Source: Pseudomonadota bacterium (GTDB lineage Bacteria > Pseudomonadota > Alphaproteobacteria > Acetobacterales > Acetobacteraceae). From it: 64,000 nt of DNA. The position numbers and the translations under genes are program-made. The notes beneath the pieces were generated by a model, which did no database searches, was not told the DNA's origin, and was given only the letters and a program-made list of their open reading frames with translations. Location of the stretch: assembly GCA_021805545.1 (NCBI GenBank), contig JAJZFB010000081.1, positions 62,001 through 126,000 on the forward strand, written 5' to 3'. Shown here piece after piece: positions 49,542 to 59,804 of this stretch; the stretch's first letter is position 1, and each line of letters starts with the position of its first letter.

Positions 49542-50243
49542 ATGTCCGCATACCCGACTCGCCCGCTCATCGCCCCGTCCCTCCTCGCCGCCGATTTCGC
49601 GCGCCTGGGCGAAGAGGTAACCGCCATCGAACGGGCCGGGGCGGATTGGCTGCACCTGGATGTGATGGACGGGCATTTCGTGCCCAACATCACCTTCGGC
49701 CCCATGCTGGTGAAGGCCCTGCGCAAGCACAGCGCCATGCCGTTCGACGCGCATCTGATGATCGCGCCCGCCGACCCGTATATTGCCGCCTTTGCCGAGG
49801 CGGGCGCGGACCATATTTCCGTGCACCCCGAGGCCGGGCCGCATCTGCACCGCACGCTGCAGCTCATCCGGTCCTTGGGCAAAAAGGCGGGCGTGGTGCT
49901 CAACCCCGCCACGCCCATCGAGTCTGTGGCGCATGTGCTGGATATTACCGACCTTATTATGGTGATGACGGTGAATCCCGGCTTTGGCGGCCAGGCCTTC
50001 ATTTCCTCCCAGCTCCCCAAAATCGCCGCGCTGCGGCAGATGATTGACGCCACGGGCCGGGACATTGTGCTGCAAGTGGATGGCGGTATTACCGAAAAAA
50101 CCGCGCCCGCCGTGCTGGAAGCGGGCGCCACCTGCCTGATTGCAGGCACCGCCGTATATGGCGCGCCCGACTACGCCGCCGCCATCGCCGCCCTGCGCCC
50201 CAACCGCCCGCACGCGGCTGAGCTTACGGCTGGCGGCGGATGA
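49542..50243 (+). CDS. rpe: Ribulose-phosphate 3-epimerase
   Basis: Interconverts ribulose-5-phosphate and xylulose-5-phosphate in the pentose phosphate pathway. The barrel motifs are [63 protein letters not shown] and [12 protein letters not shown], containing the conserved metal-ligand His/Asp residues. The 233-aa length is normal. The stop overlaps the heparinase-like gene by 4 bp. Confidence 0.96.
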
Positions 50244-51844
50244 CCCGCCCGGCGCGGCCTTCCGCCAGCCTTACACGCCGCCTGCGCGGGTTGTTGAACA
50301 GGCTGGATAATCTGCGGACGCCGCAAGGGCCGGATGCGCCCTCTTTGAGCCTGCGCGACCCCTGGCCGGGCGACCCCAGCCGCGGCGCCCGGCTGGTGAA
50401 AGCCGAGATGGAATATGCCGGCGCCGTGCTTTCCATGCCGCCGGACATATTCGCCACCGCCAGCGCCACCAGGCCCCTGCTTGCGCATCTGCACGGCTTT
50501 ACCTGGCTGCGCGATTTACGCGCCCTGGGCACCGATGCCGCGCGCAGCCGCGCCCGCACCTTGGTGCTGGACTTCATGGAAACGGAAAAGCCCGGCCCGC
50601 TGGCAAACGCGCCCGATGTAACGGGCGCGCGCCTCGCCTCCTGGCTGGGCCATTACGATTTTTTCGCCGCCTCCGCCGATGATGATTTCCGCCAGGCACT
50701 GATGTCTCATCTGGTGCGCGACGCGCGCAATCTGGCGGCCCAGATGCCGCCGGAGCTGCTGGACCAGCGCGCCCTGACAGCGCTGAAAGGCCTGACCGCC
50801 GCCGCCATCGCCTTGCCCGAACACGCGCCTTACCTCACCCGCGCGCTCAAATTCCTCGGCCCCGAGCTGAAACGGCAATTCTACGAGGATGGCTGCCATA
50901 CCGAGCGCAGCCCGGCAGCACACCTGGCCGCGCTGCAGGACCTTACGGAAATTCGCGCGCTTTTGCAGGCGGCGGGCACAACACCGCCGGATGAACTGCT
51001 GGTGACCATAGAGCGCGCCGCCGCCACCATGCGCGCACTGCGCCACGGCGATGGCGGGCTGGCTTTGTTTAATGGCAGCAAGGAAGACTTGCCTAGCCTC
51101 ATCGACCTTGTGCTGGCCCAGGCGGCGCGCGCACGCGGCAATCTCTCATCGCTTACCAATTGCGGTCTGCACCGCATTTCCGCCGCCAAGGCCGTGCTGT
51201 TCATGGATGCCGGCCTGCCGCCCGGCCCGGGGCTGGACCGGCTGGCCCATGCGGGCACACTCTCGTTTGAATTTTCCTTCGGCAAAGAGAGGCTGGTTGT
51301 AAATTGCGGCGCGGCACCTGCTTTAAGTGGCGGCTGGTCCAGCGCCCTGCGCGCCACCGCCGCGCATTCCACCCTCACCATCGCCGATGTTTCCTCCTCG
51401 GAAATTCTGGACACCGGACTTGGCCGCAAGCCCGCGGAAGTGCACGCGCACCGGCAATTTCTGGGCGGTGTGCATTGGCTGGAAGCCAGCCAGGATGGCT
51501 GGCAGAAACTTTTCGGCGCCGTGCACCACCGCCGCCTCGGCCTTTCGGAAAATGGCGAGGAGCTGCAAGGGGAAGACCTGATCGAGGCCGCAACGCCGCA
51601 GCCTTTCGCCATACGTTTCCACCTACACCCCAACGTAACGGCCAGCCTGCAGCAGGATGACGAAACAGTGCTGCTGCGCATGCCCTCTGGCCTCGGTTTC
51701 CGCCTGCGCGCGGAAGGCGCCAAGCCGCGCGTGGAAGAGAGTGTTTATTTCGGCCAGGGCGAACCGCGCCGGGCCGAGCAGATTGTACTGCCCGGCCACC
51801 AGGATGGGCCGCAACACGTAAAATGGACAATAACGAGGGTATAA
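50240..51844 (+). CDS. Heparinase II/III family protein
   Basis: A 534-aa protein with an N-terminal alpha/alpha toroid-like region (about 1-290) and a C-terminal heparinase II/III beta domain ([47 protein letters not shown]...[21 protein letters not shown]). Characterised members are polysaccharide lyases. In alphaproteobacteria this gene sits conspicuously beside rsmB, as here, and its substrate is unknown. It has no obvious signal peptide. It is coupled to rpe by 4 bp and followed 1 bp later by galE. Confidence 0.9.
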
Positions 51845-55904: not shown

Positions 55905-57791
55905 TCAAAACCCAAACATATGGTCGAACGAAAACCCGCCCGCGCCATCGTAAAGCCCGTGGAAGCCAAATAGCCGGCACGTCTTATCCCGCACCAGCAC
56001 ATAGCCACGCTCGCCCGCCGCGCTCAGCTTCTCTTCGGAAAAATATTTCGCGGGACGCACAATCATCGACCCCGAGCAGGCGATGGAAATACGCGCGGCA
56101 TCCAGCAGCGCGCCTTGCCCATCGTAAAGCTCCAGGTCAGTGCTCGATTTTTCTACCCAGGGCGATGAAGCGGGGTAAATGAGCATGCAGAAACTCTGCT
56201 TGCCCGCAAAGCCCAGCTTAAGGAACAGCCTGGTGGAAAGCCCGGGCGGCTTGCCGGTATAGCTCTGCGGCTCGTTTTTATACACCATGGCGGTGTTGAA
56301 AATATGCGCGCCAAAGCTGCTCTCCGCCGCGTGCCCGGAGGTTTTGTCCTCCCACCGGAACAAAGCATGCATCCAGCCATTTGCATCGCCACCAAAACGG
56401 AAATCATACACCAGCTCGGCATGGCCGCCTACGGGCAGGGCATCCTCAGGCAGCATGGCGCCAATATCCACCACCCCCTTGTGCGCGCGCGGCAAAACAC
56501 CCATGAAATGCTCGTCAATCTTCGCGCCATCGGGCGCGAACACATCCAGGCGCAGCGGCGTGCCCTGCTCGCTTTCCGCCATGGGCGTGGGCAGCACAAG
56601 GGTTTTGAAGCGCGCGGGCGGCAGCACGGGGAATGGCAGCAAAAACCCGCGCCCCAGCGCTTCAGGCAGGGCCTTTATGCCCGGGTCCGGCTGCAAATCG
56701 GCGCGCTCCACATTTACATGGGCAATGCGTGTGGCGGCACCGCGCACCACCTCGTAGCGCGGGCGCACCACATGGCGCCCGGCATGGAATTCAATCTGCG
56801 CCGGCCAGTTCAGGCCCGGCAGCAACTCCGCCACATCCACCGCCATGGTGGCAAAGGGCGGAATTTCCGTCTGCAGCCGCACCGGGTGCCCCGCCCCCAT
56901 GCAGTCCAGCGCCAGCGTACCGGCGGGAATGGGCACGGCATGGCTGTTCTGCACCCACAACACCACCCGCTCATCCGCCCGCGGCGCGGGCAGCCCGGCA
57001 AACCGGGCCGAGGGCCAGGCATTGGCATCATGCGTGCACGAAAGCGACACGCCATTATCGGTGGCATAGGTATCCAGCGCGTATTTCACCACATCATGCC
57101 CCGCCACGCCAATGGCATGCATGAAAAGCTGCCCCGTAAACGGCCCAAGCCCGAAGCGCGCGCGTACCTCGCGGCTATCCAGCACATAACCGCCCGGCCC
57201 GGCCGGGGCATCATCCGCCCATTCCGCCAGCACCGCGCCATCCACGGCGTACAGAATAAACTGGAAACGCACCTGCTCCGCCCCATACCCGGCCCAGTAA
57301 TTGGCCGTGGTCAGGCGGGTGGCGAAACGGCCATCATCGCGGAAAAACACGAAATTCGTGGCAAAATTCCGCGCCTCCAAATACCGCCCCGGCACGGTCA
57401 GCCAATCTGGCGGCAACTTGGCGTCATCCAGCGTTAGCAGCCTGGCACCCGGCGGCAGCAAGGGCGGCAGGCGCTCGGCCAGGCGCGCGGAATCGAAGGA
57501 GGCCAGCAGCACGGTTTGCACCTGTGCCTGGGGCAACTCTGTCAGCGCGCGCGCCTCGTGCCCGCCGCGCATTTTGCCCACCGCCTGCACATCCTGCACA
57601 TACAGGCCTTGCACATCAAAATCCGGGCACAGGGCGAGCAAGGGGGCTGCTATGCCGTCGGGGTCGAAAATGGCAACCGGCCCCGCAGCCCCGGCCAGCG
57701 CCGCCAGCCTGCGTGCCGCCAGCGGGTGGGCCAGCGCCTTGTAAACAACATTGCCGCCACGCAGATTATCAAATGTTTCGATATCCAGCAT
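55905..57791 (-). CDS. Uncharacterised 628-aa repeat protein downstream of an ELM1-like gene
   Basis: I do not recognise this family. Residues ~1-145 look like an alpha/beta nucleotide-binding-type fold (GPVAIFDPDGIAAPLLALCPDFDVQGLYVQDV ... TVLLASFDSARLAERL). After that, a beta-rich module appears up to three times, with a recurring [LF]xxY/FxxxGAxL...F/VxGxxxxH pattern: RFQFILYAVDGAVLAEWADD...HDANAW, RLDVFAPDGAKIDEHFMG...GDANGWMHALFRWED, and LELYDGQGALLDAARIS...CRLFGFHGLYDG. No signal peptide or membrane helix is seen. The start is taken at MLDIETFDN, 5 bp after the ELM1-like stop. Confidence 0.85.
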   Translation of the reverse strand: MLDIETFDNLRGGNVVYKALAHPLAARRLAALAGAAGPVAIFDPDGIAAPLLALCPDFDVQGLYVQDVQAVGKMRGGHEARALTELPQAQVQTVLLASFDSARLAERLPPLLPPGARLLTLDDAKLPPDWLTVPGRYLEARNFATNFVFFRDDGRFATRLTTANYWAGYGAEQVRFQFILYAVDGAVLAEWADDAPAGPGGYVLDSREVRARFGLGPFTGQLFMHAIGVAGHDVVKYALDTYATDNGVSLSCTHDANAWPSARFAGLPAPRADERVVLWVQNSHAVPIPAGTLALDCMGAGHPVRLQTEIPPFATMAVDVAELLPGLNWPAQIEFHAGRHVVRPRYEVVRGAATRIAHVNVERADLQPDPGIKALPEALGRGFLLPFPVLPPARFKTLVLPTPMAESEQGTPLRLDVFAPDGAKIDEHFMGVLPRAHKGVVDIGAMLPEDALPVGGHAELVYDFRFGGDANGWMHALFRWEDKTSGHAAESSFGAHIFNTAMVYKNEPQSYTGKPPGLSTRLFLKLGFAGKQSFCMLIYPASSPWVEKSSTDLELYDGQGALLDAARISIACSGSMIVRPAKYFSEEKLSAAGERGYVLVRDKTCRLFGFHGLYDGAGGFSFDHMFGF

Positions 57792-57796
57792 ATGCC

Positions 57797-58723
57797 CTAT
57801 AACCCCAAAAGGCGGCGCAGTTCCGCCCCTGCCCATTCCGTGTCGTCAAGCGGAGATGTATTCCACAGCTCCAGCCTTCCGGCAAAGCCGCGCACACGCC
57901 CATCGCGCAGCAGCGCCTCCATAAAACAGCCAATACGCGCCGAGCGCCCCGGCAGCCGGGCCAGATAAACAGGCGCCGCCGTTGCCACCGCCTCGGACAC
58001 CATCGAGACGGAATCAGCCGTCACGATCAGCGCATCGGCACAGGCCAGCATACCAAAATACGGGTTCTCGCCGGTAAAATCCCAAATCCACGCCCCCAGC
58101 GGCTCCAGCGCCGCCCGCAAAATCGCCAGCTCCGCAGCGCCAGTACGGCGCGAGGGCGTAATAACCAGCCCCAAATCGCGCGCCACACCGGCAAGCTGGG
58201 CCGCCAAGGCGCTGGCTTGTTCGGGGCCAAAACGGTAGCGGCCATTATTGCCGCCCAGCAGCACCGCCGCCAAAGGCCGCTTATATGGGGCGAAAAACGG
58301 CGCCCAGGCCGCGCGCTCCGCCGCAAGCCGCGCCTGGGTTACACGGTGCAGGGCGGTACGGGTTACAATTACGTTAGGGCCGGAAATCCCATCATGCCGG
58401 GCGGCCAGCACGGCGTCGAATTTCCGCAACTCCATGCGCGGATCCTGGATGGCAACCGCCTTCACATCCGGCCCGCGCAGGCAGGCCGCCACGCGCGCCC
58501 CTGCCCCGCCGCAGCCCATAACCACCGGCGGCAAGGGTGGCGCAAACGCCTCCGCCGCCACGGCCAGGCGCGGGTTGAACCAGAGACTGGTGGGAATTCT
58601 ATCCCACGGCTTGCGGAAGCGCAGCGTGCGCAAATCGGGCGTAAAACCGGCCGCCTCGGCCAGCCCCAGCGCCTGGTTGCGCAGCCCGGCTATGTCCGTG
58701 CAAATAAGTCTGGCGGTCATCAT
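57797..58723 (-). CDS. ELM1-like (DUF1022, GT-B type) protein
   Basis: A 308-aa bacterial relative of the plant mitochondrial fission protein ELM1, a family that groups structurally with GT-B glycosyltransferases such as LpxB. Signature segments are CTDIAGLRNQALGLAEAAG, VVMGCGGAGARVAACLRG, AVLLGGNNGRYRFGPEQASALAAQLAGV, TPSRRTGAAELAILRAAL and ALIVTADSVSMVSEAVATAAPVYLARLPG. A role in transferring a sugar to a lipid or glycan is inference. The start may be either of the ATG pair at 58723/58720. The 628-aa protein gene follows 5 bp after its stop. Confidence 0.85.
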   Translation of the reverse strand: MMTARLICTDIAGLRNQALGLAEAAGFTPDLRTLRFRKPWDRIPTSLWFNPRLAVAAEAFAPPLPPVVMGCGGAGARVAACLRGPDVKAVAIQDPRMELRKFDAVLAARHDGISGPNVIVTRTALHRVTQARLAAERAAWAPFFAPYKRPLAAVLLGGNNGRYRFGPEQASALAAQLAGVARDLGLVITPSRRTGAAELAILRAALEPLGAWIWDFTGENPYFGMLACADALIVTADSVSMVSEAVATAAPVYLARLPGRSARIGCFMEALLRDGRVRGFAGRLELWNTSPLDDTEWAGAELRRLLGL

Positions 58724-58802: not shown

Positions 58803-59804
58803 ATGAGTTCCGGACCCAAGCCCGTAACGCCAAACCGCCCTGCCGCCCAGGCCAGCCTGCCCGATTTCGTGCTGGCCATCCCCCCGCCCGATCTTTCGCC
58901 CTGGCTGGATGGCAATACTGGCGTGTCAGGCTTCACCATGCTCGATTCCGGCGTGGCCGGGCCGCATGTGCTGGTAATCTCGCTTATTCATGGCAATGAG
59001 TTCGCCGGGGCCATCGTGCTGGCCGAGCTTCTGGCAGCCAAATTCCGCCCCCTGCGCGGGCGGCTCACGCTGGGCTTCGCCAACCTTACCGCCTACGCCA
59101 AATTCGACCCCGCGAACCCCACCGCCGCGCGTTACGTGGACGAAGACATGAACCGCGTATGGGACGATTACCAGCTTTTCGGCGTGCGCCATTCGGTGGA
59201 GCTGGACCGCGCCCGTAAAATTCTCCCCCTGGTAAACACCGCCGATATGCTGCTGGATTTGCACACCATGCTGTGGCCCGCCGACCCCAGCCTGCTCTGC
59301 GGCGCAGGCCCGCGCGGGCGCGATCTGGCCTTCGCCATCGGTACGCCGGGCCAGGTCATCGCCGATGCCGGGCATGTGGGCGGCAAGCGGCTCATCGATT
59401 ATGGCCGCTTTACCGAAGGCGCCCAGCAGCGCGCCGCCTGTGTGCTGGTGGAAGCCGGGCCGCATTGGCACGAAAGCGCGGTGGCGCAATGCCGCGCCAC
59501 ACTGCATTCGCTTCTGCGCCATGCCGGCATGGCGCATGGCGCGCCGCCGCCCTACCCGCCTTCATTCGCGCAGGTGGTGCGAACCATTACGGCACGCAGC
59601 AACCGCTTCCAGTTTGTACACCCTTTTCGCGGCGGCCAAATCATACGCCGCGCGGGCACGGTCATTGCCTTCGATGGCGAGCATGAAGTGGTAACACCCG
59701 AGGATAATATGATGCTGGTCATGCCCAGCCTGCGCGTCAGCCACGGGCAAACAGCCGTAAGGCTGGCAAGGCTGGAAAAAAATTACGGCAAGACGCAAAC
59801 ATAG
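58803..59804 (+). CDS. Succinylglutamate desuccinylase/aspartoacylase-like zinc hydrolase
   Basis: A 333-aa M14-like zinc amidohydrolase. The metal ligands are H63 and E66 (LIHGNEFAGAIVLAELLA) and H154 (LLDLHTMLWPAD). The substrate arginine/asparagine region is VDEDMNRVWDD. The C-terminal beta domain (PFRGGQIIRRAGTVIAFDGEHEVVTPEDNMMLVMPS) is typical. The ORF track extends 185 codons upstream over the ELM1-like gene; the ATG at 58803 is the natural start and leaves a 79-bp divergent gap. The substrate (N-acyl amino acid or related) is unknown. Confidence 0.88.
   Translation: MSSGPKPVTPNRPAAQASLPDFVLAIPPPDLSPWLDGNTGVSGFTMLDSGVAGPHVLVISLIHGNEFAGAIVLAELLAAKFRPLRGRLTLGFANLTAYAKFDPANPTAARYVDEDMNRVWDDYQLFGVRHSVELDRARKILPLVNTADMLLDLHTMLWPADPSLLCGAGPRGRDLAFAIGTPGQVIADAGHVGGKRLIDYGRFTEGAQQRAACVLVEAGPHWHESAVAQCRATLHSLLRHAGMAHGAPPPYPPSFAQVVRTITARSNRFQFVHPFRGGQIIRRAGTVIAFDGEHEVVTPEDNMMLVMPSLRVSHGQTAVRLARLEKNYGKTQT

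Follow-up and report, generated by a model that had tools for sequence, protein, structure and literature searches.

What does an ELM1-like protein do in an alphaproteobacterium, and what is the large protein of no evident family that is encoded directly behind it? The question is raised by a gene pair in the window analysed here, a 64,000-nucleotide part of a contig from an Acidocella-like genome of 2.79 Mb. A sequence-only reading of this DNA had described two open reading frames on the minus strand, the ELM1 gene upstream and separated from the second by 5 bp (57792-57796), and the frames, strand and spacing proved exact. It had proposed that the two act together in polysaccharide or lipid modification. 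We lean, with moderate confidence, towards a more specific reading, in which the pair represents, in Acidocella, an LPS inner-core module that is conserved among Alphaproteobacteria and comprises a KdoT-like transferase, a new cytoplasmic family (here called the partner) and, often, an oxygenase. The conserved pairing and the KdoT precedent (PMC12856342) uphold the general proposal, whereas the repeat motif and the flanking genes once offered with it do not. Coordinates are collected in Table 1.

Table 1. Positions of the two genes, the predicted domains and motifs of their products, and one neighbouring gene within the window.
Feature	Positions	Strand	Basis
ELM1 / PF06258 protein, KdoT-type, 308 aa, first gene of the pair	57797..58723	-	Pfam PF06258, E 3.4e-91; SRRT and HD motifs
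HD motif, H110-D111 of ELM1	58391..58396	-	39/39 partner loci, 24/25 WaaA-positive partner-less, 8/30 WaaA-negative
SRRT motif, ELM1 residues 191-194, KdoT-important arginine pair	58142..58153	-	sequence; KdoT R179/R180 (PMC12856342)
628-aa orphan protein (partner), second gene of the pair	55905..57791	-	open reading frame; no family match; homologues
Rossmann-type domain, partner residues 1-142	57366..57791	-	AlphaFold pLDDT 90.6; Foldseek to Rex and 3nkl
Predicted beta-sandwich B1, partner residues 143-248	57048..57365	-	AlphaFold model; approximate boundaries
Predicted beta-sandwich B2, partner residues 249-352, with conserved HDANAWP, QNSH and RPRYE	56736..57047	-	AlphaFold, conservation
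HDANAWP motif, partner residues 254-260	57012..57032	-	HDANAW in 112/123 homologues
Predicted beta-sandwich B3, partner residues 353-486, with HVNVERxDL and PTPM	56334..56735	-	AlphaFold, conservation
Predicted beta-sandwich B4, partner residues 487-628, with TCRLFGxHG and C-terminal DHMFGF	55908..56333	-	AlphaFold, conservation
EPQSYxGxPPGL loop, partner residues 507-518, candidate ligand-binding lid	56238..56273	-	conservation; low model confidence
AstE/AspA-like hydrolase, divergent neighbour, not counted in the module	58857..59801	+	kept in 22/37 related loci

The genes around the pair carry little of the argument. Pfam searches recovered the GT4 glycosyltransferase, CreA, AspA-like and sulfotransferase genes that had been noted on its flanks, the last with a match below the cut-off, but they lie on the opposite strand to the pair. 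All 37 full-length related loci contain ELM1 and the partner, whereas the AspA-like gene is kept in 22, the sulfotransferase in two, and GT4 and CreA in none. As they are not conserved around related pairs, we rejected GT4, CreA and the sulfotransferase as functional context. Further away in the window, positions 50240-51841 encode a heparinase II/III-like protein (PF07940), immediately ahead of a sugar-epimerase-like gene.

The upstream protein matches PF06258 (Mito_fiss_Elm1) over profile positions 1-303 of 304 with 306 bits, against a cut-off of 27, in agreement with its earlier assignment as an ELM1/DUF1022-type protein. In Acinetobacter, an ELM1-like protein is required for the third Kdo on the inner core (PMC10936431), and the transferase that attaches this sugar to the inner core of the LOS is the ELM1-like KdoT of Acinetobacter baumannii (PMC12856342). 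The same study reported a GT-B model for KdoT and complementation of kdoT by a Rickettsia ELM1 homologue; mutagenesis of R179/R180 identified R180 as important, with no single essential base (PMC12856342). The window ELM1 shares with KdoT the ELM1-like annotation, the SRRT motif and, at a nearly equal position, the HD pair; judged by motif position and the text of that paper, its HD and SRRT correspond to H109/D110 and R179/R180 of KdoT. The two systems differ in that Acinetobacter KdoT works with GnaT, and no 628-aa partner has been described there. By analogy, the window ELM1 probably helps to build the LPS inner core, and it may do so as KdoT does.

The distribution of the HD motif agrees with this assignment. 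HD occurs in 63 of 64 ELM1s from genomes that encode the partner or WaaA, as opposed to 8 of 30 from WaaA-negative genomes, in which QY is common in its place. SRRT is retained in 14 of these 30 and is thus less telling. WaaA itself is present in the window's genome and in 53 of the 55 partner-encoding genomes surveyed, the two exceptions being metagenome-assembled genomes (MAGs) 88% and 70% complete. The HD/QY split offers a simple sequence rule for which ELM1s are likely to be LPS enzymes, and the QY-type proteins of WaaA-negative genomes possibly form a second functional class. Assembly gaps may explain why five WaaA-negative genomes (L213-L217) have close HD-type ELM1s. The ELM1s of WaaA-negative genomes (L213-L242) usually align with the profile from position 1 to only about 260 of 304, and they often occur in several copies.

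Since ELM1-family proteins occur in WaaA-negative genomes, the family is not confined to Kdo chemistry, which leaves room for a module that modifies another glycan or lipid, such as a capsule, exopolysaccharide or glycolipid, with an ELM1 donor and acceptor different from those of KdoT. The divergence of partner-locus ELM1s between families (median identity 41%) would suit such a role. However, the ELM1s associated with the partner are of the HD/SRRT type that tracks WaaA, the genomes that encode the partner are WaaA-positive, one locus (L038) has lptF-lptG-lptD as neighbours, and the Rickettsia ELM1 complements kdoT (PMC12856342). We therefore regard a different glycan as unlikely.

The 628-aa partner had been described as belonging to no placeable family, and our searches bear this out. 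The protein has no match in NCBIfam, PHROGs or PADLOC, its best Pfam E-value is 0.021, under the cut-off, and its best match among PDB sequences, InhA at E 0.011, is unconvincing. InhA was dropped because it was absent when a profile built from 13 homologues was searched against the PDB, which returned nothing at E<=10. RskA_C was likewise set aside: 21 of 63 homologues match it (best E 3e-4) over part of B2, and the window protein falls below the cut-off. We also rejected a defence system, given the lack of a PADLOC match, and a phage or plasmid origin, as viral contigs and plasmids hold no relatives. In the literature, we found no experimental work on this family.

Homologues of the partner are nevertheless numerous. 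They occur in 40 of the 61 nearest genomes, in 55 of a class-wide sample of 289, and in at least 543 stretches of a public genome collection, of which the 80 retained come mostly from Acidocella, Acidiphilium, Acidisphaera, Rhodopila and other Acetobacteraceae/Rhodospirillales. None was seen outside Alphaproteobacteria; a phylum-wide draw of 399 genomes, whose make-up by class is not itemised, gave four hits, all within the class. Identity to proteins of other alphaproteobacterial families is 41-53% over the full length, with many positions invariant. Between 39 loci, the median identity is 52% for the partner and 41% for ELM1; over 18 loci, the medians are 54% for the partner, 45% for ELM1 and 47% for the oxygenase.

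The two genes travel together. Of 80 related loci, 77 have ELM1 immediately upstream of the partner; L053 and L120 start within the partner gene, which leaves L081 as a genuine exception, with 3.9 kb upstream of the partner gene (L081:1-3876) free of ELM1. Among 46 loci drawn across the class, 38 have ELM1 upstream on the same strand. The pairing is thus kept through many alphaproteobacterial families. By genome, ELM1 is found in 54 of 55 that encode the partner and in 178 of 234 that do not (Fisher's exact test, p 4e-5), although the genomes are interrelated, so that Fisher p-values uncorrected for kinship overstate their independence. The association is asymmetric, with ELM1 in 232 of 289 genomes and the partner in 55; a KdoT-type transfer therefore does not need the partner, and Acinetobacter KdoT was itself characterised in its absence. 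The partner stands apart from ELM1 in G046, G047, G050, G081 and G282 as well as in L081. In G266, the partner is at one contig end and ELM1 with an oxygenase at another, an arrangement consistent with a broken locus.

What surrounds the pair in other genomes is mixed. In L038, the genes lptF-lptG-lptD and one for a membrane PTPS_related protein stand ahead of the partner, and this is the sole locus in which lpt neighbours were seen. PAP2 and a divergent PMT_2 gene separate ELM1 from the partner in L163 and L181, and L083, L104, L110 and L112 have co-directional GT4 genes immediately upstream. Against the inner-core reading, many loci sit among housekeeping genes that are uninformative on glycans: carB and greA occur in 21 of 46 loci, commonly upstream of the module, and trxB in 27 of 46, commonly downstream.

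To our knowledge, plant ELM1 has no partner of the 628-aa kind. This protein, ELONGATED MITOCHONDRIA1, is the source of the PF06258 family name and acts in mitochondrial fission (cited in PMC10936431). A dynamin-related protein is described as sharing in that role. The pair might accordingly serve a housekeeping or membrane-organising function unrelated to glycans, its co-location a matter of descent within a carB-greA...trxB region. Yet the pair is intact where carB, greA and trxB are absent, as in Acetobacteraceae, and a bacterial ELM1-like protein is a demonstrated glycosyltransferase (PMC12856342). We consider this explanation very improbable.

To gain insight into the partner, we turned to structure prediction. 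With 63 homologues, AlphaFold gave a model with a pLDDT of 90.6 and a pTM of 0.91, comprising an NAD(P)-type Rossmann domain followed by four beta domains that we read as Ig-like sandwiches. By inspection of the sequence, the protein has no apparent signal peptide or membrane segment. An alpha/beta N-terminal half and beta modules had been anticipated; both are seen in the model, but the alpha/beta part amounts to about a quarter of the chain, since the Rossmann domain spans residues 1-142 and the beta domains residues 143-628. Modelled separately, the Rossmann domain has its Foldseek matches in the NAD-binding domains of Rex (best E 4e-4, prob 1.0) and in 3nkl, a domain of the UDP-sugar dehydrogenase UDP-QuiNAc 4-dehydrogenase (prob 0.99). 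The fold is the same as in these NAD(P)-type domains, but TM-scores to the partner domain are only about 0.40-0.45, and the partner differs from both in being fused to four Ig-like beta domains and in having no obvious Gly-rich motif. Binding of a cofactor is doubtful because no obvious GxGxxG dinucleotide motif is apparent on inspection of the sequence. No whole-chain fold match was found in the PDB. Tandem Ig-like proteins, which alone matched the full chain (E 1e-6), were rejected at a TM-score of about 0.1, and the architecture as a whole is therefore one for which we found no counterpart in the PDB.

Internal repeats in the partner, also anticipated, are at best faint. Profile-profile comparison related B1, B3 and B4 weakly (E 5e-4 to 2e-3, probability 13-30%), but B2 matched none of the other beta domains and the proposed repeat motif found no support. 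The pairing of HDANAW with a GDANGW element fails in particular: GDANGW (residues 468-473) occurs in just nine of 123 homologues, in which the commonest form at this position is GEADGW, and the two motifs do not align in the domain comparison. We therefore abandoned this motif as a measure of repeats. Conservation is dense nonetheless, with 36 of the 142 positions of B4 at least 98% conserved. Few segments are as conserved as the EPQSYxGxPPGL loop, yet its pLDDT falls below 50 at residues 510-517; a ligand-binding lid would fit both its conservation and its poor prediction.

Such an architecture could also belong to a non-catalytic scaffold or chaperone in LPS assembly, whose Ig-like domains would join ELM1 and the oxygenase or dock them at the membrane. 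The tandem Ig-like build, with hits to Ig/FN3-type folds alone, would suit this role, as would a Rossmann domain without an obvious dinucleotide motif, conserved residues scattered across all four beta domains instead of at one site, and an operon shared with two apparent enzymes. However, the dense invariant polar residues (H, D, N, W, R) and the conserved flexible loop are unusual for a pure scaffold, and the partner is more conserved than either ELM1 or the oxygenase. We hold a pure scaffold to be a possible but distinctly less favoured role. With similar caution, the partner may be the first member of a new LPS inner-core enzyme family, of Rossmann and Ig-like build, that acts on Kdo-lipid A alongside the KdoT-like transferase and the 2OG oxygenase, in a pathway old and widespread in Alphaproteobacteria.

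A third gene recurs at these loci. At 21 of 46, the gene immediately ahead of that of the partner encodes a 2-oxoglutarate/Fe(II) oxygenase. Of the 44 genomes in which this subfamily of oxygenase occurs, 37 encode the partner (p 4e-26, again uncorrected for kinship) and seven do not. The linked oxygenases, all from other genomes, match PF13640/PF13661 alone and keep the HxD...H pattern; none matches the KdoO family PF11004. KdoO, the Kdo 3-hydroxylase (PF11004), is likewise an oxygenase of the 2OG-Fe(II) type, and by analogy the module's oxygenase would act, as KdoO does, at the inner core, despite matching PF13640 and not PF11004. A PF11004 search of the window's genome returned no match, but control genomes were likewise silent, so this result does not establish its absence. 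In the window's genome, the oxygenase is unlinked to the pair and present in two copies, at G000:C8:18711-19325 (L193), where a GT2 glycosyltransferase and then a VTT-domain gene follow, and at G000:C94:5-598 (L194). A second conserved gene of 213-223 aa lies directly after the oxygenase at L210:5603-6929 and L194:50-1238; the one at L194 matches nothing in Pfam.

Granulibacter and Acetobacter pasteurianus, which like the window's genome belong to Acetobacteraceae, have Ko in the lipid A-linked core (PMC8036547). The oxygenase subfamily is a candidate for the Ko step in the Acetobacteraceae core, where it may turn Kdo into Ko. The oxygenase might instead hydroxylate the partner protein, forming an oxygen-sensing switch in place of a set of glycan enzymes. 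Prolyl hydroxylases belong to the same superfamily as the PF13640 oxygenase, and its HxD...H pattern and position directly ahead of the partner gene are compatible with such a switch. Still, G050 and G183 have the oxygenase beside ELM1 with the partner located elsewhere, and in G079 the two adjoin although the genome has no partner; the seven partner-less genomes noted above also carry it, and many partner loci have no linked oxygenase. A hydroxylation switch is, in our judgement, quite improbable.

Returning to the inner-core module, we propose that it acts on the cytoplasmic side of the inner membrane. As a KdoT-like glycosyltransferase of the GT-B type, ELM1 would extend the Kdo-lipid A made by WaaA with a sugar, taken by analogy to be Kdo. 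The partner, often with the 2OG-Fe(II) oxygenase, would act on or present the same intermediate, either as an enzyme itself or as a substrate-presenting factor. Its Rossmann and four Ig-like domains could form a platform for the glycan, to be bound by HDANAWP, QNSH, RPRYE, HVNVERxDL and the flexible EPQSYxGxPPGL loop, and the bound glycan would allow the transferase and, where present, the oxygenase to finish the inner core. Because it is kept with ELM1 across much of Alphaproteobacteria, often with the oxygenase, the 628-aa protein is probably a missing part of outer-surface construction.

ELM1 is widespread in Alphaproteobacteria, and in the literature that we found, its bacterial role was first assigned by the work on Acinetobacter KdoT. 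If the pair forms an inner-core module, it would name a partner of the KdoT-like transferase in a large part of Alphaproteobacteria. A family that numbers more than 540 homologues and lacks any assigned domain would also gain a testable function. The module would, moreover, supply candidates for unexplained core features, such as the replacement of Kdo by Ko in some Acetobacteraceae (PMC8036547).

Two smaller observations concern individual copies of the partner gene. A 3.7-kb contig of the window's genome (G000:C60, L040) carries a second ELM1 and a truncated partner. Its whole length is collinear with other Acidocella loci, at a DNA identity of 84-87%, so the contig most likely entered the MAG as contamination, and we rejected it as a second genuine copy of the pair. 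In L175 (G150:C8) and L176 (G199:C55), the partner gene is broken into two reading frames, through sequencing error or decay, and one piece of the split gene in G199 contains an in-frame TGA.
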